This document shows, in pieces, positions 1 to 12,252 of a stretch of 51,299 bases of DNA (position 1 is the stretch's first letter; each line of letters starts with the position of its first letter). The stretch comes from Oscillospiraceae bacterium (lineage in GTDB: Bacteria; Bacillota; Clostridia; Oscillospirales; Ruminococcaceae). Location: assembly GCA_017547525.1 (NCBI GenBank), contig JAFYPL010000031.1, positions 1 through 51,299 of the forward strand, in the 5' to 3' direction. A program made the position numbers and the translations under genes. The notes beneath the pieces were generated by a model that searched no databases, was not told the origin of the DNA, and saw only the letters and a list, made by a program, of their open reading frames with translations.

Positions 1-13
1 AAGGAGGTGGAAT

Positions 14-1576
14 ATGAAAGCGGTAATATATGCTCGTTATTCTTCTGATAATCAAAGAGAAGAATCTATAGAAGGGCAGTTAAGAGAATGCACAGCATAT
101 GCAGAGAAAAATGGTTTTACAGTATTAAGACATTATATAGACCGTGCCTTTTCTGCTAAAACAGATAATCGTCCTGAATTTCAAAATATGATAAAAGATA
201 GTAACAAGAAACTGTTTGATGTAGTTATCGTATGGAAACTGGATAGATTTTCAAGAAACAGATATGACAGTGCAAGGTATAAAGCAGCACTTAAGAAAAA
301 TGGCGTGAAAGTAATATCTGCTACCGAAGTTATATCAACTGGTGCAGAAGGCATAATTCTTGAATCTGTCCTAGAAGGATATGCTGAATATTATTCTGCA
401 GATTTATCTGAAAAGGTAATCAGAGGTATGACCGAGAATGCTTTGAAATGTAAATATAATGGTGGACATGTACCGACTGGATACATTGTAGATAATGAGC
501 AACATTTTCAAATTGATGTAACTACAGCTCCTTTTGTATTAGAAGCTTTTCAGCGTTATGATAAGGGCGAAAATATAACAAGTATAGCAAAATGGCTAAA
601 TTCTCAAGGAATTGTTAATAAAACTGGAGGAGAATTCAGTTATGAAAGTGTTAAAAGAATGCTGAAAAACCGTAGGTACATTGGAGAATTTAAATTCAGG
701 GAAACGATTATCGCTGATGGTATTCCACCTATTGTTCCCAAAGACTTATTCGATAATGTACAAATTAAACTACATAAAAACTATAAGGCTGCAGCAAGAG
801 GGAAGGCGACAGAAGAATTTTTGTTTACAACAAAAATATTTTGTAGTTATTGCGGTGAGTACCTGTGCGGAGAAAGTGGAAAAAGTCATACCGGACAAAT
901 ATTGAAATATTACAAATGTGCAAGTAATAAAAAAGGCCGAAAGAAATGTCCAAGCAAGACTTTGAGAAAGGAGTGGTTAGAAAATATCATTTTAGATGAA
1001 ATATCAAAAATAATCGAAACTGATAGTATGATAGAGGCTGTAGCATCTATGGTAATGTACATACAATCTCAGGAAAACAGCAAAATCCCTTTGCTAGAGC
1101 GTCAACTTAAAGAAGTGGATAAATCTATTAATAATTTGCTTGACGCTATTCAGATGGGGATATTTACCAAATCTACAAAGACACGTCTAGATGACCTGGA
1201 AAAGTCTAAAGAAGAACTGGAGGTTCTTATACAGAATGAGAGTTTGTTAAATAAAAGATTGAGTTATCAACAGGTGGTAGACTGGTTGCTGAAATTTAGA
1301 AATATAGGTATCAATAATGAAGAAAGCAAAAAAGCTTTGATTAATATTTTTGTTAATTCAATTTATGTATATAATGAAAAAATCATTATTAATATCAATT
1401 ATTGCGATTACAGTATGTCTGTAGAATTATCTGATGTACAGAACATGAAAACAGATATACCTATACATTTAGGCGTAATCGATTCGAAAATTGTACAAAT
1501 AGGTGAGGGATTTGCTTTTGTTATAGACTATATCTATCCTAATTTTAATAGTAAGAAGGGAAAGCAGAGAGCGTGA
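14..1576 (+). CDS. Large serine recombinase (site-specific integrase/resolvase family)
   Basis: A 520-residue large serine recombinase that would integrate or excise a mobile element by cutting att sites. The N-terminal resolvase domain (about 1-150) begins with ARYSS, placing the nucleophile at Ser10, and carries the WKLDRFSRNR motif. A recombinase domain follows (about 155-260), then a zinc ribbon (CSYCGEYLC, later YYKC and KKCP, about 277-317) and a coiled-coil stretch (about 345-410). The start is fixed by AAGGAGGTGG just upstream at the window edge. The stop codon lies in the loop of its own terminator. The gene is AT-rich like the rest of the island. Its last 79 codons are duplicated near 7350-7585. 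Confidence 0.95.
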   Translation: MKAVIYARYSSDNQREESIEGQLRECTAYAEKNGFTVLRHYIDRAFSAKTDNRPEFQNMIKDSNKKLFDVVIVWKLDRFSRNRYDSARYKAALKKNGVKVISATEVISTGAEGIILESVLEGYAEYYSADLSEKVIRGMTENALKCKYNGGHVPTGYIVDNEQHFQIDVTTAPFVLEAFQRYDKGENITSIAKWLNSQGIVNKTGGEFSYESVKRMLKNRRYIGEFKFRETIIADGIPPIVPKDLFDNVQIKLHKNYKAAARGKATEEFLFTTKIFCSYCGEYLCGESGKSHTGQILKYYKCASNKKGRKKCPSKTLRKEWLENIILDEISKIIETDSMIEAVASMVMYIQSQENSKIPLLERQLKEVDKSINNLLDAIQMGIFTKSTKTRLDDLEKSKEELEVLIQNESLLNKRLSYQQVVDWLLKFRNIGINNEESKKALINIFVNSIYVYNEKIIININYCDYSMSVELSDVQNMKTDIPIHLGVIDSKIVQIGEGFAFVIDYIYPNFNSKKGKQRA

Positions 1577-1590
1577 GCTCTCTGCTTTTT
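1563..1590 (+). terminator. Rho-independent terminator of the recombinase gene
   Basis: A perfect 10-bp stem, AGCAGAGAGC (1563-1572) and GCTCTCTGCT (1577-1586), with a GTGA loop and a T run. The recombinase TGA stop sits in the loop. Confidence 0.85.
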
Positions 1591-1616
1591 TCGTGAGAAA
1601 TAGTTTTGATATTTTA

Positions 1617-1674
1617 GTTTGTAATAATACAAAATAGTCAGTTTATGACATTTTGTATGCATTTCATTACAAAC
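1617..1674. repeat. Nested inverted repeat just downstream of the recombinase
   Basis: Outer arms GTTTGTAAT (1617-1625) and ATTACAAAC (1666-1674) enclose ATACAAAAT (1627-1635) and ATTTTGTAT (1650-1658). Inside those are GTCA (1637-1640) and TGAC (1646-1649). The inner 13 bp pair with one bulged base. There is no T run, so a simple terminator is unlikely. It could be a recombinase site, an operator or a structured RNA; the function is unknown. The rest of the gene-free stretch 1590-1800 is plain AT-rich sequence. Confidence 0.6.
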
Positions 1675-1819
1675 AAGTAGATTTAATTTGCTAATATAGT
1701 TTAATATGAACAACAGAACATATTATTTATAAGGATTATACTCAAAATTTATTTTTTGTAATAAAATTATTATACTTATTATGAATTGTGTCTAAAAATT
1801 TGTGAGTTAGGGAGACTTT

Positions 1820-2205
1820 GTGTTAAAAGAAATGTTTTCACAGCTGGACGTTCAAGTTGATCTAATAGCTGCTGTAATACAATCATAACGAACATCAGCT
1901 CTATGTACATTTCTAATGGGGCAAATAGTACTCAAGTTGAATTGCAATGAATTGAAGCTGTACGTGAAATGAAACGTACTTACTATAATTATTTAACAGA
2001 ACTTTTAACTAAAAAACTAATGTATACAAATAGGCCGAATTCTATAGAAAAAGTTAAAGCAGAAATGAAATTTTTAGAAGTAGCTGATTCACAGTTAAAG
2101 CGACAACTTAAAATAACAAAATTGAGTAATTCAATTGATATCATAGATAATATGTTTGAAGAATACAAAGCTTTTTCTGCTTTTGGAAAATGGTTAATTG
2201 AATAA
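1820..2205 (+). pseudogene. Broken small gene (unrecognised)
   Basis: No family recognised. A GTG-started frame at 1820 with a weak GGGAGA site encodes VLKEMFSQLDVQVDLIAAVI and then a stop at about 1888. In another frame, codons ending in GANSTQVELQ reach a TGA near 1950, after which the same frame continues as IEAVREMKRTYYNYL into the open stretch 1969-2205 (78 residues from ATG 1969, ending FGKWLIE). The pieces read like one helical protein broken by a frameshift and a stop. Alternatively the 78-residue part is expressed from ATG 1969, but I see no convincing ribosome site there. It lies just upstream of the radical SAM gene. Confidence 0.45.
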
Positions 2206-2256
2206 TTTGCTGAGTATAAAAAGCGAAAGAGATAATACATATTGCGAGGTGATTTA

Positions 2257-3546
2257 ATGAAATTTGGAAAATATACCAACTTATTTATTTCTAATGAGTT
2301 TCTTTTGATACATAATACTTTAGAAAATAAATTATTCAGAACCAGTGATGATAAACTTAAGGCTGTCTTGGAAGAGATATATTATGATAATAAGGGAATA
2401 GAATCTATAAGTAATAATAAAGATTTTGCAGATGTTATAGAAAGCTTGAAAGACGGTTTATTCATCATTGATGATGATTACAATGAAACAAACATTGCGA
2501 ATTTAAGATTTAGTGAGAGAGCAATAACAAACAAAACATTAGGGTTAACCATTTTGCCAACAAGGCAATGCAATTTTAGATGTCCATATTGTTATGAGGA
2601 ACATGAAAATAGAGTAATGGCAGATCATATGTATGATGATATATTACAGTTTATAAATGATTATGTAAAAAAGAATGGAACACAATTAGTTAATATATCA
2701 TGGTTTGGTGGCGAGCCGATGCTTGAATATGAGAATATTTGTAAGTTTATGGAGAAATTGCGAGATACACTTGTCTCGGATGTTTTGCTTACAGGTTCAA
2801 TGACTACTAATGGATACTTACTAACAAGTGAAAGATTTGAAAAATTGTTATCATACAATGTTAGGCATTATCAGATTACAGTTGATGGCCCAAAAGAATT
2901 TCATGATTCTACCAGATTTTTGGCAGGCGGAAAAGGGACATGGGATGTAATAATGGCTAATCTTTTTGCCATCAAGCGCAACAAATCCAACTTTGAAATT
3001 GTCATAAGAACAAATATTTCTCCAGAGTTAGTAGAACATTTGGAGGAATGGTATAGGTATTTATCTAATAATTTCATTAATGATAAAAGATTCCAGTTCC
3101 ATCCAGAAGCTATACGAGATCTTGGTGGTGCTGATAATTCGTTGCTAAATAACGATATCAGCCTTTACAAAAAAATTTCAGAATTCAATATAAATCTCGG
3201 TATAGATGTTAAAAAAACATATAATTTTTACTCACCGTTTAGTATGATTTGTTATGCATCCGATAGAAATGCTTTTGTTATTGATTATGATGGAAAAATA
3301 AAAAAATGCTCAGTAGCATTGGATAATGATTACAATACAGTAGGACAGATTAGGAATAAAAATGCTAGATTTAATGAAGAAAAGTTATCATGGTGGACCT
3401 CTTATCCTTTAAAGGAAAAATGTTATGACTGTAAGATTTTTCCGCTATGTTACGGAAGAAAATGTCCAAATGGTTATTGTAATGAGGAATATTGTGATGA
3501 ACTTTTTGAAATATATAAATCTAAAATCTTAACAACTATTCTATGA
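2257..3546 (+). CDS. Radical SAM/SPASM peptide maturase
   Basis: A 429-residue radical SAM enzyme expected to modify the Cys-rich peptide encoded immediately downstream. The N-terminal ~95 residues resemble the recognition region usual in peptide-modifying members. The cluster motif CNFRCPYC (Cys105, Cys109, Cys112) binds the SAM-cleaving 4Fe-4S cluster. The C-terminal SPASM region has many cysteines (KKCSVAL, CYDCKIFPLC, GRKCP, GYCNEEYC) for auxiliary clusters. The start is ATG 2257 because GAGGTG lies 6 nt upstream; an upstream TTG at 2242 has no such site. The stop nearly abuts the peptide gene's ribosome site, so the two are probably co-translated. Thioether formation (sactipeptide or ranthipeptide type) is an inference. 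Confidence 0.9.
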   Translation: MKFGKYTNLFISNEFLLIHNTLENKLFRTSDDKLKAVLEEIYYDNKGIESISNNKDFADVIESLKDGLFIIDDDYNETNIANLRFSERAITNKTLGLTILPTRQCNFRCPYCYEEHENRVMADHMYDDILQFINDYVKKNGTQLVNISWFGGEPMLEYENICKFMEKLRDTLVSDVLLTGSMTTNGYLLTSERFEKLLSYNVRHYQITVDGPKEFHDSTRFLAGGKGTWDVIMANLFAIKRNKSNFEIVIRTNISPELVEHLEEWYRYLSNNFINDKRFQFHPEAIRDLGGADNSLLNNDISLYKKISEFNINLGIDVKKTYNFYSPFSMICYASDRNAFVIDYDGKIKKCSVALDNDYNTVGQIRNKNARFNEEKLSWWTSYPLKEKCYDCKIFPLCYGRKCPNGYCNEEYCDELFEIYKSKILTTIL

Positions 3547-3560
3547 AAGGAGGAATATTA

Positions 3561-3782
3561 ATGAGTTACGAAATTTTGTCTTTAGATCAAGGTGGTGCTA
3601 CACCTTTGTCTGATGTAGGTTGCGTTAATTTTATTTGCGACATTATTGATGTCGTTTGTGTACCTGATTTAATTTGTGGATGTAATGGATTGTGTGGCTG
3701 TCCAACTCCCCAAAATCCACGGTGTGACGCAATAGGTGGTGGCTGTGCTACCAGTATAGGTGGTGATAGGCCAAACAGATGA
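3561..3782 (+). CDS. Nine-cysteine RiPP precursor peptide (candidate)
   Basis: A 73-residue peptide, the likely substrate of the radical SAM enzyme upstream. Cysteines are at 21, 26, 33, 39, 41, 45, 47, 55 and 62; the first 20 residues (MSYEILSLDQGGATPLSDVG) have none and may be the leader. The Cys-rich part has close pairs (CGC, CGC) and Gly-rich turns, and ends in a charged tail, GGDRPNR. AAAGGAGG overlaps the maturase stop and sits 7-8 nt before ATG 3561, which decides this start over ATG 3543. The stop overlaps the next start as ATGA. I do not recognise a named precursor family. Modification type and biological activity are unknown. Confidence 0.8.
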   Translation: MSYEILSLDQGGATPLSDVGCVNFICDIIDVVCVPDLICGCNGLCGCPTPQNPRCDAIGGGCATSIGGDRPNR

Positions 3783-5272
3783 AAAATATGGTAAAGAAGA
3801 TTTGTAAATTTAGCGTATTATTTATTATAGCCGTAACTATAGTATATAAGGGGATAACTATCATCTTAAGTAACCGGGGTAGAGATGCTACCCCGGTTGC
3901 TAGGGCTTTTTCTCTTTCACAGATTTATAATGAAGTTAATAAAATGTCCAGCAGTGATGTTTTATTTAACAGTGAAGTGGATTTTGATGATGAATACCAA
4001 AAACACTTTGAAATGGCATATAATGCAAAAGATGAATACGAGTATTATATGGTTTTAAATAGTTTTATGGCACTTTTAAACGATGGGCACACAATGGTAA
4101 GACCAAATTTTTCGCCAAGTATAATCGGAAATTCTGGTTTGCATATAGCTTATATAGATGATGAATATTACATAGTTGGATCTAAAGACCAAACTGTAGC
4201 ACCATTATTTTCTAAAATAGAAAAAATTAATGGAATACCTATAAATAGATATATTGCAACTAAAATAGAACAGTATATAGGCGTAAAGACTCCACTACGA
4301 AGAGAATATATGATTTCTAGGTTTTTATCCCAGGGAAAACAAGGAGAAACTGTGCAGTATACAATACGTACCCCTTCTGGAGAAGAGAAAGATGTAAGTT
4401 GCATATATCTTAATATTTCAGAAAGCCAAAGCGTTTTTATTGATATTTTGCCAGTGCAGAAAATGGAATATAAGTCTTCTAATTTTATAGCTTCTTATGT
4501 TAGGAATGATGAAAACACTATTCTGTATCTAAATATTTTAACTTTTCGGGAGGAAAATAAAAATTTTTTACATGAATATTATAATTATATTGTTCCTCTA
4601 ATAGATAAGGTAGATGGCGTAATAATGGACGTACGATTCAATGGTGGAGGAAACTCTTTAAATGGGACAATATTACTATCTCCATTTATTGAATATTCAA
4701 AATTAACCGGGGCTAACGGATGCGATGTGTTTTACAGAGTATCCTCTCCAGCCATAGAGTTACCTATGTATCTGTACAGAAATGTAAATGGAGCAAAGAA
4801 TTTATATAATAAAGAGTTTATAGGTTTAATAAAGGATAAAAAATCCTTTTCTATAAAAGAAGATAAGTTATATCCAGCCCTTGGGGTGGATTACAATATA
4901 TATAATGAGGATTATTTAGGTGATAATATTTACTTACCAATGGAAAGAGTGGATAAAATTGATAAACCTCTTACAGTATTGACAAACTACTTTTCTGGCT
5001 CTGCTGTTGATACTTTTGCAGATTTATGTAAAGAGCTTGGGGTAACAACTATAGGTACAAACACTGGAGGTTTTACAACGAATTGTTATAGTATGAAACT
5101 TGATACCGGATATTCTGTACAGTTTTCTACAGGAATACCATACTCTCATGATGGGCACTCTATACAAAATTATGGTATAAAACCTGATATATTCATTGAT
5201 TATAATATTCAAGATTTAATGAATGGAGAAGATTCATATATCAATATGGCTTTAGACTTTCTTAAAAGATGA
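3779..5272 (+). CDS. Membrane-anchored S41-family peptidase
   Basis: A 497-residue serine peptidase of the S41 tail-specific family. A Lys-rich start and hydrophobic segment (about 10-30) suggest a membrane anchor with the catalytic part outside. The motif LLNDGHTMV places a His near residue 104. RFNGGGNS is the family's oxyanion-region motif, and NYFSGSAVDTF carries the candidate nucleophile Ser408. The Ser-Lys dyad motif of CtpA-type enzymes (a Lys after GxxTxG) is absent, so the tricorn-like S41B mechanism fits better. The start overlaps the peptide stop (ATGA), indicating translational coupling. Most likely it trims the exported peptide, though immunity or regulation are possible. Confidence 0.85.
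   Translation: MKNMVKKICKFSVLFIIAVTIVYKGITIILSNRGRDATPVARAFSLSQIYNEVNKMSSSDVLFNSEVDFDDEYQKHFEMAYNAKDEYEYYMVLNSFMALLNDGHTMVRPNFSPSIIGNSGLHIAYIDDEYYIVGSKDQTVAPLFSKIEKINGIPINRYIATKIEQYIGVKTPLRREYMISRFLSQGKQGETVQYTIRTPSGEEKDVSCIYLNISESQSVFIDILPVQKMEYKSSNFIASYVRNDENTILYLNILTFREENKNFLHEYYNYIVPLIDKVDGVIMDVRFNGGGNSLNGTILLSPFIEYSKLTGANGCDVFYRVSSPAIELPMYLYRNVNGAKNLYNKEFIGLIKDKKSFSIKEDKLYPALGVDYNIYNEDYLGDNIYLPMERVDKIDKPLTVLTNYFSGSAVDTFADLCKELGVTTIGTNTGGFTTNCYSMKLDTGYSVQFSTGIPYSHDGHSIQNYGIKPDIFIDYNIQDLMNGEDSYINMALDFLKR
3872..3917 (+). promoter_or_regulatory. GC-rich stem-loop inside the 5' end of the peptidase gene
   Basis: Arms AACCGGGGTA (3872-3881) and TACCCCGGTT (3889-3898) pair perfectly over 10 bp with a 7-nt loop. 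A T-rich stretch follows (3907-3917, 8 nt after the stem). It stands out in AT-rich DNA, about 90 nt after the precursor stop. It could lower expression of downstream genes relative to the peptide, or protect the peptide mRNA's 3' end. The distance to the T run makes full termination uncertain. Confidence 0.5.
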
Positions 5273-5326
5273 ACATAATATATTTTTGGATTAACTTTAA
5301 TAATATTTTTTAACTTTATTGTATAG

Positions 5327-5348
5327 TTGATATTTCTCTAAATATCAA
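5327..5348 (+). promoter_or_regulatory. Small stem-loop between peptidase and ABC exporter genes
   Basis: TTGATATTT (5327-5335) and AAATATCAA (5340-5348) form a 9-bp stem with a 4-nt loop in the 130-nt gap. It is AT-only apart from two G-C pairs and lacks a T run, so it is a weak terminator at best. Confidence 0.3.
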
Positions 5349-5402
5349 GGGTAGCTATAGCATAATAAATCGTCACGTATGTATAGGCAAAAGGTTCTCA
5401 AC

Positions 5403-7109
5403 ATGATTAATATAGTAAAAAATAATATTAATATTTTAAAAAAAATATATAAATTCAACAAATCCTATGTCATAGCATCGCTTTTCTTTTCTATGATAGG
5501 TAGCTTTTCACCACTGCTTTCAGCTCTCCTACTTAAGAATGCCTTGAATTTTTTCAGCTCCACAATAAGCTATAAATTGTTCCTAACAATGCTTACCATT
5601 TATACGATTTATACAATATTGATTTTTATTGCCTCTGCCTATTTAAACAATTTATTTTATCCAAAATCCGTCCAGAAAATTTATACTGCGGTTAATTATG
5701 AAATATATAAAAAAGTTGCCGAGTGCAGGATAGATCTTTATAACAATACAGATTTTTTAAACGAGTATAACCGCGCTATAAGCAATATTCAACATTATAC
5801 ATATGGAGTTATTAACTCCTTTTCTAAACTGTTGTCAGGTGGAACAACAATAATTTCAATGGCAACATTGTTAGCTTTAATAGATCCAATTTTAATACCT
5901 ATCGCTTTGGCTTTAGCGTTGTTGAATTTTACATTTAATAAAAAATTTACAGAAATAGATTATAATGCCGGCAAAGAAAAAGCATCATCGTATAGAAAGC
6001 AAAATTATATATCTAGACTATTTTATTTAAAAAGTTATGCTAAAGAAATGAGGAAAATCAATTTAAAAAATAAACTTTTAGATATTTATGATGATACAAA
6101 TCATGAATTGTTAAACAATATTGAGGTGTATGGAAAAAGAAAAAATATAATTTCAATCATAAAAGGGAGTTTTCAGTTAATAGCTAATCTTTTAACCTTG
6201 TTGTACTTATTTTTTGAAATGATTAATAATGTAATTTCATCTGGAGATTTTGCTGTCGGTTATAGTAGCAATAACCAACTATCGGCTGCAATAACTTCAC
6301 TTATGGAAACAGGAATTGATTTTTATAAAAATAGTCTTTATATTGATGAAATTAATTCATTTATGAATAAAATTTCCTTTTCAGAGCAAGAACCCTTAAA
6401 AACTGAATATTTTGAATCATTACACCTTATCGATGTTAGTTACAAATATTCTAATACTGATAAGTATGTAATTAAAAATGTGAATCTTACTATAAATAAA
6501 GGTGAAAAAATAGCCCTTGTTGGGTTTAATGGGTCTGGAAAGAGTACTTTAATAAATATCCTTGCAGGTTTATATAATCCTACTTCAGGACAAGTATTAC
6601 TAAACAATGTACCAATAGAAAAATATTCAAAACAATCGCTAAACAAAATTATCGGTATTTTATTCCAGGATTTTAATGTTTATAATATCTCTATATTAGA
6701 AAACATCTTATTAGGGCAACATTCAAGTTCAGTTGAAGAAAATGCGGATCAACAAACAATAATTGAAATAAAGGCTCTGATGGAGAAATTTAATTTTGGA
6801 ACTTCAGATTATATAGATGAAATTATCTACAGAAAATATGGTAATGAGGTGCATAGCGATGGCATAGAATTGTCTGGAGGACAAAAACAAAAAATAGCCT
6901 TGCTACGAACATTATACAGCAAATGCCCTTTAATTCTTCTAGATGAACCACTAAGTTCCCAAGACACTTTTTCCCAAAGTAAATATATCGATAAAATAAT
7001 AGAAACTATGCCGGACTCCACTTTGTTATTTATCACCCATCATTTATCTGATATATCAAAAATGGATAAAGTTTATAGCATCGAAAATGGAGAAGTCATG
7101 CCAAAATAG
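5403..7109 (+). CDS. ABC transporter, fused permease and ATPase (probable peptide exporter)
   Basis: A 568-residue half-transporter with an N-terminal membrane domain (about 15-310) and a C-terminal ATPase. The ATPase shows Walker A GFNGSGKST, Q-loop LFQDF, signature LSGGQKQK, Walker B LILLDEP and H-loop THHLS. There is no C39 peptidase domain, so leader removal must be done elsewhere, plausibly by the S41 peptidase just upstream. ATG 5403 is chosen because AAAAGG lies 8 nt before it; ATG 5379 has no ribosome site. It is the last gene of the operon and is followed by a strong hairpin. Peptide export is inferred from context; self-protection is also possible. Confidence 0.88.
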   Translation: MINIVKNNINILKKIYKFNKSYVIASLFFSMIGSFSPLLSALLLKNALNFFSSTISYKLFLTMLTIYTIYTILIFIASAYLNNLFYPKSVQKIYTAVNYEIYKKVAECRIDLYNNTDFLNEYNRAISNIQHYTYGVINSFSKLLSGGTTIISMATLLALIDPILIPIALALALLNFTFNKKFTEIDYNAGKEKASSYRKQNYISRLFYLKSYAKEMRKINLKNKLLDIYDDTNHELLNNIEVYGKRKNIISIIKGSFQLIANLLTLLYLFFEMINNVISSGDFAVGYSSNNQLSAAITSLMETGIDFYKNSLYIDEINSFMNKISFSEQEPLKTEYFESLHLIDVSYKYSNTDKYVIKNVNLTINKGEKIALVGFNGSGKSTLINILAGLYNPTSGQVLLNNVPIEKYSKQSLNKIIGILFQDFNVYNISILENILLGQHSSSVEENADQQTIIEIKALMEKFNFGTSDYIDEIIYRKYGNEVHSDGIELSGGQKQKIALLRTLYSKCPLILLDEPLSSQDTFSQSKYIDKIIETMPDSTLLFITHHLSDISKMDKVYSIENGEVMPK

Positions 7110-7244
7110 AGATTCACTTCTCTTTGATTTTTCCGTAGTCAAGTATAAATTTAGATGCGTCTTCTAATATAACAAAAGAACGATAAATTTTATCAACTCG
7201 ACTAATACTTATCTGTCGTTATCCGATTTGATATGGTCTATTGC

Positions 7245-7288
7245 AATAATGAAACTTTCGAATACTGTTCGTTTCATTATTTGTTTTT
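7245..7288 (+). terminator. Probable terminator of the RiPP-like operon
   Basis: AATAATGAAAC (7245-7255) and GTTTCATTATT (7271-7281) form an 11-bp stem, with a possible inner CGAA/TTCG pairing in the loop. A GTTTTTG stretch follows. It lies about 135 nt after the ABC gene. Confidence 0.6.
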
Positions 7289-7345
7289 GTGATAACTAAA
7301 ACTATTATATAGATCCCAATTTGTAAAGCAAACAATTTTTGATCT

Positions 7346-7585
7346 TTAATTAATATTTTTGTTAATTCAATCTATGTATATAATGAAAAAATCATTATTA
7401 ATATTAATTATTGCGATTACAGTATGTCTGTAGAATTATCTGATGTTCAGAATATGAAAACGGATATACCTATACATTTAGGTGTAACCGATTCGAAAAT
7501 TGTACAAATAGGTGATGGATTTGCTTTTGCAATAGACTACATATATCCCAATTTTAATAGTAAGAAGGAAAAGCAGAGAGCGTAA
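7346..7585 (+). pseudogene. 3'-terminal remnant of a second serine recombinase gene
   Basis: Seventy-nine open codons with no start, closely matching the last 79 codons of the recombinase that ends at 1576 (only scattered differences; LGVTDSKIVQ versus LGVIDSKIVQ). Both DNA copies also share the following stem AGCAGAGAGC/GCTCTCTGCT, but here the T run is replaced by TTTAAAA. Similarity begins abruptly near 7346-7350, so the rest of the gene was deleted or never arrived. Together the copies form ~240-bp direct repeats around the peptide operon. In the gap 7110-7709 the only other notable items are the upstream hairpin and a promoter near 7644. Confidence 0.85.
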
Positions 7586-7643
7586 GCTCTCTGCTTTAAA
7601 ATACAATTCATAACATAATACCAGCACTTCGTGACATACAGTG

Positions 7644-7672
7644 TTGAAATGAATATATATTTGTAATAAAAT
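7644..7672 (+). promoter_or_regulatory. Promoter for the receiver/kinase pair
   Basis: -35 TTGAAA (7644-7649), 17-bp spacer, -10 TAAAAT (7667-7672), about 40 nt before the start codon at 7710. Confidence 0.5.
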
Positions 7673-7709
7673 GTAATTTATGAAGAAGTATATTTTAGGG
7701 GGAAAATAG

Positions 7710-8399
7710 ATGAAGTTATCATTTATGCATTTTATAACTAACACTATTAGTGATTTATCTGAATATGTTGTTTTGGAACACAAGTACAATATGGTTGAAC
7801 TTAGAAAAAGAGTAAATATTCTTGTTATAGATGACAATGATTTTTTTGAGTTGGATTTTTTGAGACATAATGGTTATCAAATTACCCATAAAAAAGATAT
7901 TGATAGTATCAAAGATGTTGAACCGTATGAAATAATTATGTGTGATATAGGTGGAGTAGGGAAAAATTTAGGGTATGAATTAGAAGGAGCTACTATTATT
8001 AAAGAAATAAAAGCTAGTTATCCTATTAAGCAAATAATAGCTTATTCCTCTAATACTTATAATGCTGACTATAATAAATATTTTTCTATAGCCGATGATG
8101 TAGTCACTAAAGATATAAGTATTGATGATTGGATGAGCATTCTTGATAATAATATTAGGATTTCTATTAATCCTATATTTGTATGGGAAAAAATAAGAAG
8201 TTATTATTTGGAACACAATGTGTCTACACTAACAATTGCAAAAATAGAAGATAAATATGTAAAAGCGATAAAGAAAAAAGATTATTCTATATTAATAGGA
8301 TCGATTAAAGAAAATGAGTTTGATGTAAAATCAATATTAATGGATTTTACAACATCACTTTGTGCAAAATTAATCCTCGGAAAATTTGGAGGGGTATAA
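7710..8399 (+). CDS. Response-regulator-like receiver protein with an unknown C-terminal region
   Basis: A 229-residue protein. After ~35 residues a receiver fold begins with NILVIDDNDFF (acidic pocket). The predicted phospho-acceptor is Asp79 in IIMCDIGGVG; a Ser in IIAYSS and a Lys in VVTKDIS fit the switch positions. The C-terminal ~85 residues are helical and match no DNA-binding domain I know, so the output is unclear. The start has AGGGGGAAAATAG before it. The stop lies within the ribosome-site region of the kinase gene, so the two are coupled. The placement next to a recombinase remnant suggests accessory cargo. It could regulate the nearby peptide operon or act in defence; neither is shown. 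Confidence 0.7.
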   Translation: MKLSFMHFITNTISDLSEYVVLEHKYNMVELRKRVNILVIDDNDFFELDFLRHNGYQITHKKDIDSIKDVEPYEIIMCDIGGVGKNLGYELEGATIIKEIKASYPIKQIIAYSSNTYNADYNKYFSIADDVVTKDISIDDWMSILDNNIRISINPIFVWEKIRSYYLEHNVSTLTIAKIEDKYVKAIKKKDYSILIGSIKENEFDVKSILMDFTTSLCAKLILGKFGGV

Positions 8400-8400
8400 C

Positions 8401-9480
8401 ATGGCATTATTACCGATGTACATAGATGATAAACTTGAAGATGGTACTTTGATAAAATTACTTCCTTTTTGTAAAAGTAATTGTGAAAGAACTAGATGCA
8501 AAGAATATTACAAAAGTATAAATGAGTGTTCAAATGGTATATATGTTTGTCCATATGGCTTGAATTCGTATATAAGCAATAATGGGAAAAATAGAGTTAT
8601 TTTTACTGGGATAAAAATTAGAAATAAATATGATAAAAAGAAAGCGAAAGCAACAGAAAGTCAACAGTATGTATATAATCCTGTCATTAATGAAAATGAT
8701 TGCTTTGAGTTCGGACGAGATTATTTAAAAAATATTGAAATTGTAAATGAATCTAAGAATAAGATGCAAGCTATAGATGAGCTGCTGCACGAAACAAGGT
8801 CATTAAATAGACGCATAAGGACATCAATAGATTTGTTATGGGAAAAAGAAGAAGAAGAATATGATGATGCGGAATTGTTACAGATAATTAAAAATGCACA
8901 TATATCTAGTTACATGATTTCAAGTAGATTTTCATATTTTGACTATACTTTAAACCCTGATAGATTTATAGGAAGACCGTATAAGCATAATGTTTTTAAG
9001 AAATTTGATAAAATGAGAAAACTCCTTAAAGACTATATGAGGAAAAATGTCTGGATTACTTTGAATTCATCACAACAAATAGATTTTCAATACTTGATAT
9101 TACCAACTTTTGAGATTTTATTGTTTATTCTATTAGAAAATGCAATAAAATATTCACCTAATGGACAACCTGTGAATGTGGATTTCAATATGAAAGGGGA
9201 ACATTTAGAAGTTATAATCTCTTCTATGGGCCCTTATAATAATGAAAATGAGATTCTTAAATTGTGTGAAAAAGGATTCAGGGGAGAAAATGCAAAGGCG
9301 TTAGAAAAATCAGGGCAAGGCTTTGGTTTGAGTTTTGCAAAAGAAATATGTGCAACTCATGGTATAGACATATCATTTAATAGCATATACTCGCATAAAG
9401 ATCATGGTATAAAATATGGCAAATTTAATGTAATGTTACATTTCGAGAAAAAAGAGCAAGGTGAAGATAGTTATTTGTAA
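8401..9480 (+). CDS. Cytosolic sensor histidine kinase with Cys-rich N-terminus
   Basis: A 359-residue kinase with no membrane segment. The N-terminal ~55 residues hold clustered cysteines (FCKSNCERTRC, NECSNGIYVCPYG) that could bind metal or an Fe-S cluster. The H-box is DELLHETRSLNRR (His130). The C-terminal HATPase domain has N-box LLENAIKYSP and G-box SGQGFGLSFAKEI. It starts at ATG 8401, preceded by GGAGGGG. It follows the receiver gene with almost no gap, so it is the likely partner. A Cys cluster in place of a transmembrane sensor suggests sensing of redox state, metal or an intracellular ligand (inference). Confidence 0.82.
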   Translation: MALLPMYIDDKLEDGTLIKLLPFCKSNCERTRCKEYYKSINECSNGIYVCPYGLNSYISNNGKNRVIFTGIKIRNKYDKKKAKATESQQYVYNPVINENDCFEFGRDYLKNIEIVNESKNKMQAIDELLHETRSLNRRIRTSIDLLWEKEEEEYDDAELLQIIKNAHISSYMISSRFSYFDYTLNPDRFIGRPYKHNVFKKFDKMRKLLKDYMRKNVWITLNSSQQIDFQYLILPTFEILLFILLENAIKYSPNGQPVNVDFNMKGEHLEVIISSMGPYNNENEILKLCEKGFRGENAKALEKSGQGFGLSFAKEICATHGIDISFNSIYSHKDHGIKYGKFNVMLHFEKKEQGEDSYL

Positions 9481-9509
9481 TTATTACTGGAACATTAATA
9501 ACCATATTA

Positions 9510-9544
9510 TCAGGTTCGAATATAGAAACGCTAACTGCACCAGA
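9510..9544. repeat. 35-bp direct repeat, copy 1
   Basis: First of three near-identical copies, beginning ATCAGGTTCGAATA and ending GCTAACTGCACCAG, here with ATATAG for ATACAG. Read on the minus strand it encodes GAVSVSIFEPD. It marks the boundary after the terminator of the toxin-less barstar module. It lies 30 bp past the histidine kinase stop. Confidence 0.85.
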
Positions 9545-9582
9545 AGCCCCTGTAATTGAACTTTACAGGGGCTTCTTTTTCA
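9544..9582. terminator. Terminator between the kinase gene and barstar copy A
   Basis: GAAGCCCCTGTAA (9544-9556) pairs with TTACAGGGGCTTC (9564 onward), followed by a T run on the plus strand. It would stop rightward transcripts from the kinase gene. The convergent barstar transcript also meets it, but without a clear T tail. Confidence 0.7.
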
Positions 9583-9585
9583 TTG

Positions 9586-9924
9586 TTATGAAATATACGT
9601 AAAAAATACGTTACTGTTTTCTTTCTGAATATCTTCAAAAATTTCCAGCATAGGTTTGCAATAATCTTGGTACTCTTCGGTCATGGAATAAAAATTATGT
9701 ATTTCTACAATATAATTTTTTCCTCTACAATAAAAAGTACTTCTAGCCAAATCCCAGAAAGCATCCCAGTTCATACCACAGAATAATGGCAATCCAAATT
9801 TATCAATCAGCATTTTGTGAATATCATACCATCCATCGCATTTTGAAAAATCTAAAATTATTGGATTTTCAGGAATATCTCTATATGCCAGTTCTTCCTG
9901 TGTATATTTTTTTCTTTCAATCAT
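9586..9924 (-). CDS. Barstar-family immunity protein, copy A (orphan)
   Basis: A 112-residue barstar-like RNase inhibitor, which would bind and block a barnase-type toxin in the cytoplasm. Family-like features are ILDFSKCDGWYDIHKMLIDKF followed shortly by GMNWDAFWD, the region that plugs the nuclease active site in barstar. It starts at ATG 9924 after AAGGAGAAATTATA. It is highly similar to copy B at 10120-10458. Unlike copy B it has no toxin gene upstream, only a ~30-bp scrap of one (9937-9970), so it is an orphan immunity gene. Differences from copy B concentrate around FCGMNWDAFWDLARSTFYCR, so inhibitor specificity may have drifted. Confidence 0.9.
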   Translation of the reverse strand: MIERKKYTQEELAYRDIPENPIILDFSKCDGWYDIHKMLIDKFGLPLFCGMNWDAFWDLARSTFYCRGKNYIVEIHNFYSMTEEYQDYCKPMLEIFEDIQKENSNVFFTYIS

Positions 9925-9936
9925 TATAATTTCTCC

Positions 9937-9970
9937 TTATGCTATTTCTACAAAAGTCTTATAATGGTCA
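9937..9970 (-). pseudogene. Residual 3' end of a deleted barnase gene
   Basis: On the minus strand these bases encode DHYKTFVEIA and a stop, matching the barnase C-terminus DHYKTFVEIV of the intact copy at 10471-10977. At GGTCA|ATTGTAAA the sequence jumps to what lies upstream of the intact toxin gene (ATTGTAAA near 11025). Roughly 540 bp, almost the whole toxin, was therefore removed. Confidence 0.75.
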
Positions 9971-10045
9971 ATTGTAAAAGTTGAAACCAGGGATTTCATC
10001 CCATCTTTTCCCATATTTTAACAAATTATATGTAGTTAGTAAATA

Positions 10046-10080
10046 ATCAGGTTCGAATACAGAAACGCTAACTGCACCAG
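10046..10080. repeat. 35-bp direct repeat, copy 2
   Basis: Same 35 bp as copy 3 (11103-11137). Similarity extends leftward about 60 bp through CCCATATTTTAACAAATTAT, also seen near 11070. On the minus strand the extended repeat reads GAVSVSVFEPD and continues open to a stop at 9968. Confidence 0.9.
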
Positions 10081-10085
10081 CAAAA

Positions 10086-10115
10086 AGCAGACCTTTTGTA
10101 AGGTCTGCTTTTTTG
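10086..10115. terminator. Bidirectional terminator after barstar copy B
   Basis: AGCAGACCTT (10086-10095) and AAGGTCTGCT (10100-10109) form a 10-bp stem with a 4-nt loop. A-rich sequence on the left and a T run on the right allow termination from both sides. Confidence 0.8.
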
Positions 10116-10119
10116 TGTA

Positions 10120-10458
10120 TTATGAAATATATGCAAAAAATACATTGCTGTTTTCTTTTTGAATATCTTCAAAAATATTTAGCATAGGTTTACAGTAATC
10201 CTGGTATTCTTCGGTCATAGAATAAAAATTATGTATTTCTATAAAATAATTTTCTTCCCTGCCGTCAAAAGTATCTTCGCCAAAATCTCTGAATGCACTC
10301 CAGTTCATACCAGTTGCAACAGGTAATCCAAATTTATCAATCAGCATTTTAAATATATCATACCATCCGCTACATTTTGAAAAATCTAAAATTATTGGAT
10401 TTTCAGGAATATCTCTATATGCCAGTTCTTCCTGTGTATATTTTTTTCTTTCAATCAT
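10120..10458 (-). CDS. Barstar-family immunity protein, copy B
   Basis: A 112-residue barstar-like inhibitor, the cognate immunity of the barnase-type toxin encoded immediately upstream on the same strand (12-nt gap). The family core is ILDFSKCSGWYDIFKMLIDKF and GMNWSAFRDFGEDTF. It starts at ATG 10458 with AAGGAG upstream, overlapping the toxin gene's end. The first and last thirds are almost identical to copy A; the middle, which carries the nuclease-contacting region, differs most. Confidence 0.92.
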   Translation of the reverse strand: MIERKKYTQEELAYRDIPENPIILDFSKCSGWYDIFKMLIDKFGLPVATGMNWSAFRDFGEDTFDGREENYFIEIHNFYSMTEEYQDYCKPMLNIFEDIQKENSNVFFAYIS

Positions 10459-10470
10459 TATAATTTCTCC

Positions 10471-10977
10471 TTATACTATTTCTACAAAAGTTTTATAATG
10501 GTCATAGGTTACGAATATCAAGCCATCATTTGAAAAAAGAATTCTATCATTACCTCTATAGCCTTTTTCGTAATTTATATCAGCTTCATACCATATTCTT
10601 CCTGCTGTATCAGGCAGGTGACCATCTTCGTTCCTATATATACCTTTGGTTAACATTTTACCAGGAGCTACTTTATCCAGGTTACCCTTATATCTTATCC
10701 AACCTAACTGTTTTGCTTCGGTCTTTGTAATATAGTAATCCGGTAATTCATCATAGCGTTTCAGCCACCAATCTGCACCGTCTTTGCCTTCCTTTGTAGC
10801 TTTGCCTGCCATTATTGCCTGCATCCATACAATAATACACCTGCAACGTTCGTGCAGTCTATGGTCAGTTTGTGGCACTTCGTCTCTATGAAATATTTTG
10901 CCGTGATTATCTTTGCATGGCTTACATCTTCGGTTGTCTGGAATACTTATCCAATGCTTATAATTTTTACTTTGCAA
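10471..10977 (-). CDS. Barnase-type ribonuclease toxin with phage-head-like N-terminus
   Basis: A 168-residue protein. The C-terminal ~105 residues match barnase: LPDYYITKTEAKQLGW, KGNLDKVAPGK, then the active site WYEADINY (general base Glu), GYRGNDRILFS (Arg residues) and YDHYKTF (catalytic His). All catalytic positions are present, so it should cleave RNA. The N-terminal ~55 residues carry RCKPCKDNHGKIF and LHERCRC, the Cys/His motif typical of SPP1 gp7/Mu gpF-type head proteins and of pretoxin regions. The start is TTG 10977, set by AAAGGAG 7 nt upstream. No signal peptide is seen. Barstar follows 12 nt downstream. Whether it is secreted, phage-borne or a stranded toxin tip is unknown. 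Confidence 0.92.
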   Translation of the reverse strand: MQSKNYKHWISIPDNRRCKPCKDNHGKIFHRDEVPQTDHRLHERCRCIIVWMQAIMAGKATKEGKDGADWWLKRYDELPDYYITKTEAKQLGWIRYKGNLDKVAPGKMLTKGIYRNEDGHLPDTAGRIWYEADINYEKGYRGNDRILFSNDGLIFVTYDHYKTFVEIV

Positions 10978-11102
10978 TTAAAAACTCCTTTCGTTATTCA
11001 AAAATCTGATAACGTTATCAGTTTTAATTGTAAAGCAGTAAATACGGGATATCATCCCATCTTTTTCCCATATTTTAACAAATTATATATAGTTAGTAAA
11101 TA

Positions 11103-11137
11103 ATCAGGTTCGAATACAGAAACGCTAACTGCACCAG
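11103..11137. repeat. 35-bp direct repeat, copy 3
   Basis: Third copy, with the same extended left-hand homology (CCCATATTTTAACAAATTAT) as copy 2. On the minus strand it reads GAVSVSVFEPD and then a frame broken by one extra A in the GGGAAAAAG run. It lies upstream of the intact toxin gene. Confidence 0.9.
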
Positions 11138-11142
11138 AAAAG

Positions 11143-11172
11143 GCAGACCTTATGGTCTGCTGTTTCTTTTTA
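11143..11172. terminator. Terminator of a vanished third barstar module
   Basis: GCAGACC (11143-11149) and GGTCTGC (11154-11160) with A-rich and T-rich flanks. It is homologous to the hairpin at 10086-10109. Confidence 0.6.
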
Positions 11173-11195
11173 CTATGAAATATATTTAAAAATAT
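11173..11195 (-). pseudogene. Stub of a third barstar gene
   Basis: The minus strand ends YIS-stop, like both barstar copies, in the same place relative to the adjacent hairpin. Similarity is lost within about 25 bp. This is probably the right-hand edge of the accessory region; core-like sequence starts just after. Confidence 0.5.
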
Positions 11196-11256
11196 AGCAT
11201 AAGCAATTGTTTTATGTTATGATTATTGTAAATGAACCACGAAAAGGAGAATTACC

Positions 11257-12252
11257 ATGGCACCTGAAAAAATTATTTTAGACGTTGATACTGGCTCTGA
11301 TGATGCGGTTGCTATTATATGCGCGGCACTTTCCAGTAAAATTGAACTTCATTCCATTTGTACCGTATGGGGCAACAGACCACTTGACCAGACAACTGAA
11401 AATACTCTGCGCGTTGTAGATATGCTGGGTATCGGTGATAAAGTAAAAGTTTATCCTGGCTGCGAAACATCTATGGTTGCTACACTGCTGGCAAACCGTC
11501 ATGCAGGTTACGGCGGCCAGAGAAAAAGTGTTAACGGCGGCGAAGAAAAAAGTATGCATCAGGAAACTATTGATGAGCTGCCTCCAGCACACACTCTGCC
11601 ACAGGACAAACGTGCTGTTATGCATTATGTAGACACTATTATGAATGGTGAAGACGGTGAATTTACACTGGTGCCAGTTGGTCCGCTTACAAACGTTGCT
11701 ATGGCTTTGCGTGTTGAACCACGTATTGCAAAGAAAATCAAACAGATTGTTCTTATGGGTGGTGGTTGCAGAAGAAGTAACTCCACAGCAGCCGCAGAAT
11801 TTAACATCTGGGGCGATCCTGAAGCCGCACAGATTGTATTTACATGCGGTGCAAAGGTTACAGTTGTTCCACTGGATGCAACACAGAATGCCTGCATCAA
11901 CAGTGATGAAGTTAATGAACTTTATAAACTGGGTACACCTGCCGCAACATGTGTTGCTGACATGATTAAACACCGTATTGAAGCATATAGCTATCTCCAG
12001 CCTATGGACAGACTGGATAGTGCTCCTGTACACGATGCTCTTACTGTGTGTTATCTTATTCAGCCTGATGTTCTGGAACAGGTTAAACTGGTAAGATGTG
12101 ACGTTGATATTTCTGGTGGTATTGCCGACGGCCAGACTATTGTTGACCCGCGTGCATACACAGACCTGCCTAAAAATGTAAACTTTGCATTCTTCGCAAA
12201 CAGAGATAAATTCTCTGACCTGCTGTTTAAAATTCTGCGTGGCGAAGGATGA
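11257..12252 (+). CDS. Ribonucleoside hydrolase (IunH/URH family)
   Basis: A 331-residue nucleoside hydrolase that cleaves the N-glycosidic bond of purine or pyrimidine ribonucleosides, releasing base and ribose for salvage. The N-terminal DVDTGSDDA motif binds the catalytic calcium. LVPVGPLTNVAMAL and IVLMGGG are family blocks, and HDALTV near the C-terminus supplies the conserved His-Asp. The length is typical. The start is ATG 11257 with AAAGGAGAA upstream. It is monocistronic: accessory DNA precedes it and a strong terminator follows. Base preference cannot be told from sequence. Confidence 0.93.
   Translation: MAPEKIILDVDTGSDDAVAIICAALSSKIELHSICTVWGNRPLDQTTENTLRVVDMLGIGDKVKVYPGCETSMVATLLANRHAGYGGQRKSVNGGEEKSMHQETIDELPPAHTLPQDKRAVMHYVDTIMNGEDGEFTLVPVGPLTNVAMALRVEPRIAKKIKQIVLMGGGCRRSNSTAAAEFNIWGDPEAAQIVFTCGAKVTVVPLDATQNACINSDEVNELYKLGTPAATCVADMIKHRIEAYSYLQPMDRLDSAPVHDALTVCYLIQPDVLEQVKLVRCDVDISGGIADGQTIVDPRAYTDLPKNVNFAFFANRDKFSDLLFKILRGEG

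Follow-up and report, generated by a model that had tools for sequence, protein, structure and literature searches.

What does a membrane-anchored peptidase of family S41 do when its gene lies between those of a cysteine-rich peptide and an exporter, in an operon headed by a radical S-adenosylmethionine (SAM)/SPASM enzyme? The question is raised by a 51,299-nucleotide stretch of DNA from an Oscillospiraceae bacterium (assembly GCA_017547525.1, contig JAFYPL010000031.1, positions 1 to 51,299 of the forward strand), referred to here in its entirety as the window. Between positions 2257 and 7109, all on the plus strand, it carries in order a radical SAM/SPASM peptide maturase of 429 residues (2257..3546), a precursor peptide of 73 residues with nine cysteines (3561..3782), a membrane-anchored S41 peptidase of 497 residues (3779..5272) and an ATP-binding cassette (ABC) exporter without a C39 domain (5403..7109; 568 residues from the preferred start). 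The reading to which we lean, with a little less than even confidence, is that of a cassette for a ribosomally synthesised and post-translationally modified peptide (RiPP) on a mobile-looking island, in which the S41 peptidase sits on the outer face of the membrane and matures the exported peptide. The peptide itself is probably a cysteine-rich, thioether-bridged RiPP.

The original prediction, made from the sequence of the window, described four tightly packed genes, which is correct for the first two junctions. The Shine-Dalgarno sequence of the peptide gene (AAAGGAGG, 3546-3553, 7 nt before the peptide ATG) starts at the final base of the maturase stop codon, and the S41 start overlaps the peptide stop in the sequence ATGA (3779-3782). 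The ABC gene, in contrast, is not coupled and follows the S41 gene after a gap of about 130 nt. Its start is better placed at the ATG at 5403 than at 5379 (which would give 576 residues), since AAAAGG lies 8 nt upstream of 5403 and the exporter of the related locus L059, 30% identical across 575 columns, aligns from residue 13 of the window exporter. Promoter-like sites were not above chance (36 found, 42.0 in shuffles), and an Rfam scan of positions 1-11500 gave nothing of use.

The product of the first gene matches the Radical_SAM model PF04055 with 67.4 bits and bears the motif CNFRCPYC. SPASM maturases follow a seven-cysteine rule, and here the CX3CX2C motif (C105, C109, C112) is accompanied by seven SPASM cysteines (C332, C351, C389, C392, C398, C403 and C413), all ten being invariant in 30 aligned rows, as befits the predicted maturase with a SPASM region. 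Among the named NCBIfam families the top-scoring one is TIGR04463 (rSAM_vs_C_rich), whose name points to a cysteine-rich target and whose match spans nearly the entire protein; at 173.9 bits against a cut-off of 525, the maturase is not a member by the curated rule. The same applies to Clo7bot TIGR04334 (170.5 bits, cut-off 600), CefB NF038107 (147.4, cut-off 600), geopeptide TIGR04280 (131.8, cut-off 400), PapB NF047865 (113.9, cut-off 340), CcpM TIGR04068 (102.3, cut-off 500) and SCIFF TIGR03974 (65, cut-off 425). Membership in any named maturase class was rejected, all seven scores lying far under their cut-offs, and with a peptide that has no family match either, the earlier impression that no named class applies is upheld.

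Searched with a profile of the 30 rows, the best solved relative of the maturase is CteB (5wgg, 4.8e-42). At the N-terminus, where an RRE fold may be expected, the alignment starts at position 42 for CteB and at position 3 for 8vpo. CteB is a thioether-forming enzyme, and from this kinship we infer that the window maturase cross-links the peptide, a thioether being the likely product as for the ranthipeptide maturases CteB (SCIFF) and PapB. In ranthipeptides and sactipeptides such a thioether joins a cysteine to a nearby residue, at its alpha carbon or at its beta or gamma carbon. The window peptide nevertheless differs from the targets of these enzymes, a regular PapB-type CX3D repeat having been rejected on reading its sequence. 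With the genome of the window counted in each case, maturase matches were found in 16 of 247 family genomes at E 1e-20 or better, in 24 of 394 genomes of the order sample at 1e-30 and in 22 of 391 genomes of the class sample at 1e-40. A first scan of genome contigs and two viral scans with single proteins gave nothing of use.

In a tree of 52 rows, selected from the retrieved maturases, the window maturase groups with those of L138 (39% identity) and L059 (37%) with support 99/96, and next to these three come L060, L061, L062, L142 and L172 (support 99/93). A small cysteine-bearing open reading frame (ORF) lies directly 3' of all eight maturases in this 99/93 clade, the two closest relatives L138 and L059 included, which agrees with the prediction of a RiPP-type operon combining a radical SAM enzyme with a cysteine-rich peptide. 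Another system of this general kind is Clo7bot (TIGR04334 maturase ctpM, Paraclostridium plasmids), which likewise has a radical SAM/SPASM enzyme, cysteine-rich peptides and an ABC exporter, but differs in its many tandem short peptides upstream of the maturase, in a DUF4097 protein and in a maturase that falls in the other half of the tree. No S41 peptidase is annotated in the two Clo7bot stretches L167 and L168, and no paper on Clo7bot was found in the open-licence literature.

The nine cysteines of the 73-residue peptide, predicted as such and encoded by the ORF at 3561-3782, stand at positions 21, 26, 33, 39, 41, 45, 47, 55 and 62. No NCBIfam or Pfam model matches the peptide at E 1, a phage search with it gave nothing, and matches at E 0.07-0.7 were rejected as relatives; four sister peptides are likewise without an NCBIfam match at the strict 1e-40 limit. 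Its leader, MSYEILSLDQGG, resembles the starts of the sister peptides, namely MKQYEIISLDNLED (L138), MKFEIINNDFEA (L059), MEIIQAGLEP (L060), MDVKQRGIVEP (L062), MKIIRESFDQ (L061), MEVLREASAS (L142) and MEIVRNSCFN (L172), a likeness that was judged by eye and is loosest in L062; the search pattern for such starts was drawn from the first loci found and is hence no independent test. The peptides of the clade contain 2-13 cysteines (precursors with up to 13 lie at L142 2854-3048, L172 862-1086 and L060 9195-9326), and the CGCNGLCGC of the window peptide resembles the GCGC runs of L142 and L172.

The third gene product matches PF03572 with 75.1 bits (cut-off 24) and has a hydrophobic N-terminal segment, read from the sequence, so that its description as a membrane-anchored S41 peptidase stands. 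The putative catalytic pair His104/Ser408 is kept in at least 90% of 10 aligned S41 rows. Catalysis in S41 peptidases is of the Ser-Lys type, and the lysine of such a dyad was not seen in the sequence of the window peptidase. The protein lies outside the classical C-terminal processing peptidases (TIGR00225, 44.2 bits against a cut-off of 218.6). Its solved relatives are 4l8k (7.3e-17), 8vcb (4.4e-14), 4ghn (4.7e-9) and tricorn 1k32 (5.6e-9), and the earlier label "tricorn-like" is therefore fair, though the first three score better; the nisin resistance protein (NSR) 4y68 is a weak relative (E 0.0017). With a profile of the 10 rows, the top matches are retinol binding protein 3 together with 4l8k, 8vcb and 4ghn, while tricorn drops to 8.7e-7 and NSR climbs to 1.8e-13. 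A viral scan with the S41 alignment gave nothing of use.

The exporter matches PF00005 with 113.3 bits and, as had been predicted, has no C39 match. No C39 peptidase was found in the assembly, and the same search detected one in 8 of 14 control genomes. A double-glycine leader cut by a C39 domain was also considered for the window peptide and rejected, as GG 11-12 is not kept in L138, L059 or L034 and no C39 was found.

Because the operon holds no other protease, no C39 was found and the pairing with S41 recurs (see below), maturation is the role that we propose for the S41 enzyme, in the following scheme. The maturase would bind the short leader with its EI[ILV]-type start and, by means of its radical SAM and SPASM auxiliary clusters, tie several of the nine cysteines to neighbouring residues as thioethers. 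The modified peptide would then be exported by the C39-less ABC protein, and on the outer face the membrane-anchored S41 peptidase, in the least certain of the three steps, would trim it to the active product, taking over the task performed in other exporters by a C39 domain. This product would most likely be secreted and serve antagonism or signalling.

S41 genes near such maturases were counted in a non-random sample of 140 distinct maturase genes followed by 2 kb or more of sequence, with a few repeats between its sets (18 from the family, 68 from genome contigs, 47 from order and class, 7 from viral contigs). They were sought with home-made models, which later included S41 proteins already found and would miss more divergent ones. 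In four of the 140 cases (L285, L136, L128 and L095) an S41 gene starts no more than 2.5 kb downstream on the same strand, and to these comes the plasmid L034, which is not among the 140 because less than 2 kb follow its maturase on the linear contig. In this non-random sample the pairing is rare but recurrent, and it had rightly been called unusual. In viral contigs, a scan with the maturase alignment returned 80 loci, eight of which hold a gene that scores 100 bits or more with a home-made maturase model, and no S41 lies downstream of any of these eight.

The same overall order of radical SAM enzyme, cysteine-rich peptide, S41 and ABC protein is seen in three loci, namely the window, L034 and L285. 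L034 is contig G018:C34 of 10,787 bp, also found as CALWZC010000034.1 in a metagenome-assembled genome of an "uncultured Anaerofilum sp." (L105); an exact terminal overlap of 77 nt makes it circular with 10,710 bp, and it carries a relaxase and MobC, as a mobilisable plasmid does. It encodes the radical SAM enzyme, a 61-residue peptide with seven cysteines, two S41 proteins (S41a, 459 residues, across the join; S41b, 462 residues, PF03572 55.2 bits) and the ABC protein. The chromosomal locus L285 (G648, Clostridia) has the radical SAM enzyme, a 110-residue ORF, a 72-residue peptide with 12 cysteines, an S41 protein with a lipoprotein-like start (67 bits) and the ABC protein. In the tree, the maturases of L034 and L285 (the latter as L174) belong, with L177 and L180, to a starred group of four in the half that holds the Clo7bot maturase, and the window maturase stands across the starred branch from them, in the other half; the S41 proteins of window and plasmid share 19-22% identity (BLASTP E 0.03; the S41 of L285 was not part of this comparison). 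Since the maturases lie in different halves of the tree and the S41 proteins are so dissimilar, the pairing was probably made more than once and S41 thus probably recruited repeatedly, although one old origin followed by many losses could also have produced this pattern.

Several further arrangements were seen around related maturases. In L286, whose maturase L177 belongs to the same group of four, a 480-residue membrane protein without a Pfam match (7129-8827) lies between a 10-cysteine peptide and the maturase and is a possible stand-in for S41. In loci from Flavobacteriales and Elusimicrobia (L136 2328-5224, L128 381-3046, L095 3097-6699) a shorter radical SAM protein is followed by S41 after 21, 310 and 1057 nt, respectively, and the two Flavobacteriales loci have small ORFs just before. 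L046 has an S41 gene on the opposite strand and L117 a weak S41 upstream. In L029 (5552-9442) and L030 (5206-9314) the maturase adjoins a carrier-protein-like gene (PP-binding), with tiny peptides, ABC exporters and a subtilase (S8) fused to DUF1611, and L031, L032 and L070 resemble this group by eye; a carrier protein is odd in a peptide pathway.

A number of observations weigh against a maturation role. In L089 the S41 gene lies 3.4 kb downstream, behind a C39-type exporter, so that leader removal there would not need S41, and the protein has a methionine in place of the catalytic histidine. The home-made models found no S41 in the stretches of L060, L061, L062, L142 and L172, and an ABC exporter lies 3' of the precursor in L060 and L172; in the four operons of this group that were read (all but L142), the exporters measure 529-607 residues, which is too short for C39, and S41 is thus not obligatory for a peptide of this kind. 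The contigs of the closest relatives end early, L059 just past the peptide and L138 within the gene after it, whose product resembles DUF3139 (27.1 bits, cut-off 27.3) and not S41. Moreover, the assembly is 78.64% complete, so that a C39 protein could be missing from it. Finally, a membrane-anchored S41 protein is known as a lantibiotic resistance protein. With such a precedent, and with C39-less sister exporters near which no S41 was found, the claim of the original prediction that the S41 enzyme is the processing protease is not established.

The precedent leads to the strongest competing explanation, in which the RiPP is the same and the S41 protein is a self-immunity protease that destroys the returning mature peptide, the leader being cut by a housekeeping protease or kept. 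SaNSR, an S41 protein, has a membrane helix at its N-terminus and a His98/Ser236 dyad, and it clips nisin at the C-terminus (PMC4828448). It shares with the window protein the family, the N-terminal anchor and a His/Ser pair, and acts on an extracellular RiPP. It differs in having 320 residues instead of 497 and the motif TASSAEM (PMC4828448), and its gene confers resistance on non-producers instead of belonging to a biosynthetic operon. In the window protein this motif is absent and replaced by FSGSAVD, and although the solved NSR is weakly related to it, several other solved S41-type proteins score much better. A gene right behind the structural gene is a usual place for immunity functions, and here the S41 gene is directly 3' of the peptide gene and overlaps it; immunity would also fit the sister operons, which have an exporter of this kind and in which the models detect no S41. 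The plasmid with its two S41 genes, on the other hand, is not explained by immunity alone, which would also leave the operon without a dedicated leader protease. If the S41 enzyme acts on the exported peptide, we regard immunity as a doubtful though serious possibility and hold to maturation, itself with tentative confidence.

An S41 protein with nothing specific to do for the peptide, be it a general envelope protease or a passenger of the island, appears unlikely. S41 genes are common, one more is present elsewhere in the assembly, no RiPP operon accompanies the S41 relatives L055 and L057 in their stretches (none was seen in the short stretches of L056 and L058 either, and L054 is at a contig end), and the pairing is rare among related maturases. 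Such a passenger would, however, hardly account for the overlap of the S41 start with the peptide stop, or for the order of peptide, S41 and ABC protein recurring on a plasmid and a chromosome next to distant maturases. Least probable is a peptide that is not cross-linked but binds metal or forms disulfides, with a maturase that acts elsewhere or modifies differently (epimerisation, carbon-carbon bond), for although radical SAM/SPASM enzymes carry out several reactions and this one is below every named cut-off, maturase and peptide genes are neighbours in eight of the eight clade members and the best solved relative forms thioethers.

Gut clusters of the LanB type that combine a radical SAM/SPASM protein with an S41 peptidase have been described (29 of 50 examined; PMC5410138). 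Unlike the window operon, they carry a putative lanthionine dehydratase as well as a protein of thiopeptide type, and the passage that describes them gives S41 no function. The available text of a 2023 review on RiPP leader proteases (PMC10885120) contains no whole-word S41, nor does a paper on Bacteroidales RiPPs (PMC10352776), and in PMC9413430 S41 is a figure number. No paper whose text was examined in searches of an open-licence library gives S41 a function in the making of a radical SAM RiPP.

The S41 gene contains a further element that may bear on the balance between peptide and protease, a 14-pair stem at 3869-3901 on the plus strand, 87 nt past the peptide stop, with five T residues starting 5 nt behind it. 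This putative attenuator lies within the S41 frame, between the regions for the membrane anchor and the catalytic domain. Its core of 11 unbroken Watson-Crick pairs includes seven GC pairs; none of 1000 dinucleotide shuffles of 2257-7109 contains a stem that reaches 11 pairs and seven GC, and two of 1000 contain one that reaches nine pairs and five GC. Among 2000 synonymous redraws of S41 codons 21-55, one was as stable and none had such a stem, and in the first 11 kb the hairpin is the only stem (at least nine pairs, at least four GC) inside a listed gene. An attenuator directly 3' of the precursor gene is ordinary in such operons, and because the peptide and S41 genes overlap, it falls here within the next coding sequence. 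A strong hairpin follows the peptide gene in four of six loci (the window, L034, L138 and L059, but not L285 and L286), those of L034, L138 and L059 having been judged by folding without a shuffle control. The hairpin may favour expression of the peptide over that of the protease; it would keep transcripts of the peptide plentiful and reduce expression of the genes that follow. A bolder proposal, which we put forward as speculative, is that pathways for radical SAM cysteine-rich RiPPs have repeatedly acquired S41 proteins as dedicated maturation enzymes on the outer face, replacing the C39 domain of the exporter, with the level of the protease set by a hairpin in its own coding sequence.

The surroundings of the operon suggest how it was acquired. 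The assembly comprises 1.50 Mb in 43 contigs; the GC content of the window is 27-32% across the first 11 kb and 39-44% from there on (2-kb windows), where ordinary chromosomal-type genes follow, including a cell-wall and division cluster recognised by eye. The left edge of this AT-rich island is formed by a serine recombinase gene (14..1576, plus strand; PF00239 110 bits, PF07508 69.7 bits), whose 3' end with its terminator constitutes the left copy of a 254-nt repeat (1335..1588, plus strand). The right copy (7344..7597, plus strand) is 94% identical, just two copies exist in the whole assembly, and the operon thus sits between two recombinase ends; this duplicated end may mark the route by which the cassette arrived. 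The original prediction had mentioned neither the island with its duplicated recombinase end nor the hairpin in the S41 gene nor the recurrence of the S41 pairing at other loci. Among 15 further genomes of the genus that were searched, none holds a convincing match to the peptide (two hits are at chance level, E 0.16 and 0.29), and the family search, which lists three other members of the genus, shows no maturase match in them. The AT-rich island, the recombinase ends and the absence from the genus genomes searched mark the operon as accessory, and it probably came in on an element.

Other genes of the island were noted in passing. Upstream of the operon, a 78-residue ORF (1969-2205) has no family match and no relative outside its own genome in the loci retrieved for it. 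A pair resembling a response regulator and a histidine kinase (7710-8399 and 8386-9480) matches the PADLOC candidate defence models PDC-M43A (67.5 bits) and PDC-M43B (61.5 bits). On the minus strand, two similar small genes (9586-10458 and 10471-10977) lie within 534-nt repeats; the first, which is the one scanned, matches Barstar with 50.7 bits. The neighbouring gene encodes a ribonuclease domain (51.2 bits) and matches Phage_Mu_F weakly, and the group resembles a toxin tip accompanied by duplicated immunity genes.

In RiPP pathways, leader removal and self-protection are hard to predict, and S41 is a protease family that is not usually linked with the making of cysteine-rich RiPPs. If S41 enzymes were indeed recruited for maturation, this would add a new protease family to RiPP maturation and explain how some C39-less exporters are served. 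If the S41 protein instead confers immunity, producers would carry an NSR-like safeguard inside the operon itself, which would help to predict which S41 genes protect against RiPPs. The gene order shared by the three loci offers a search pattern for further loci.

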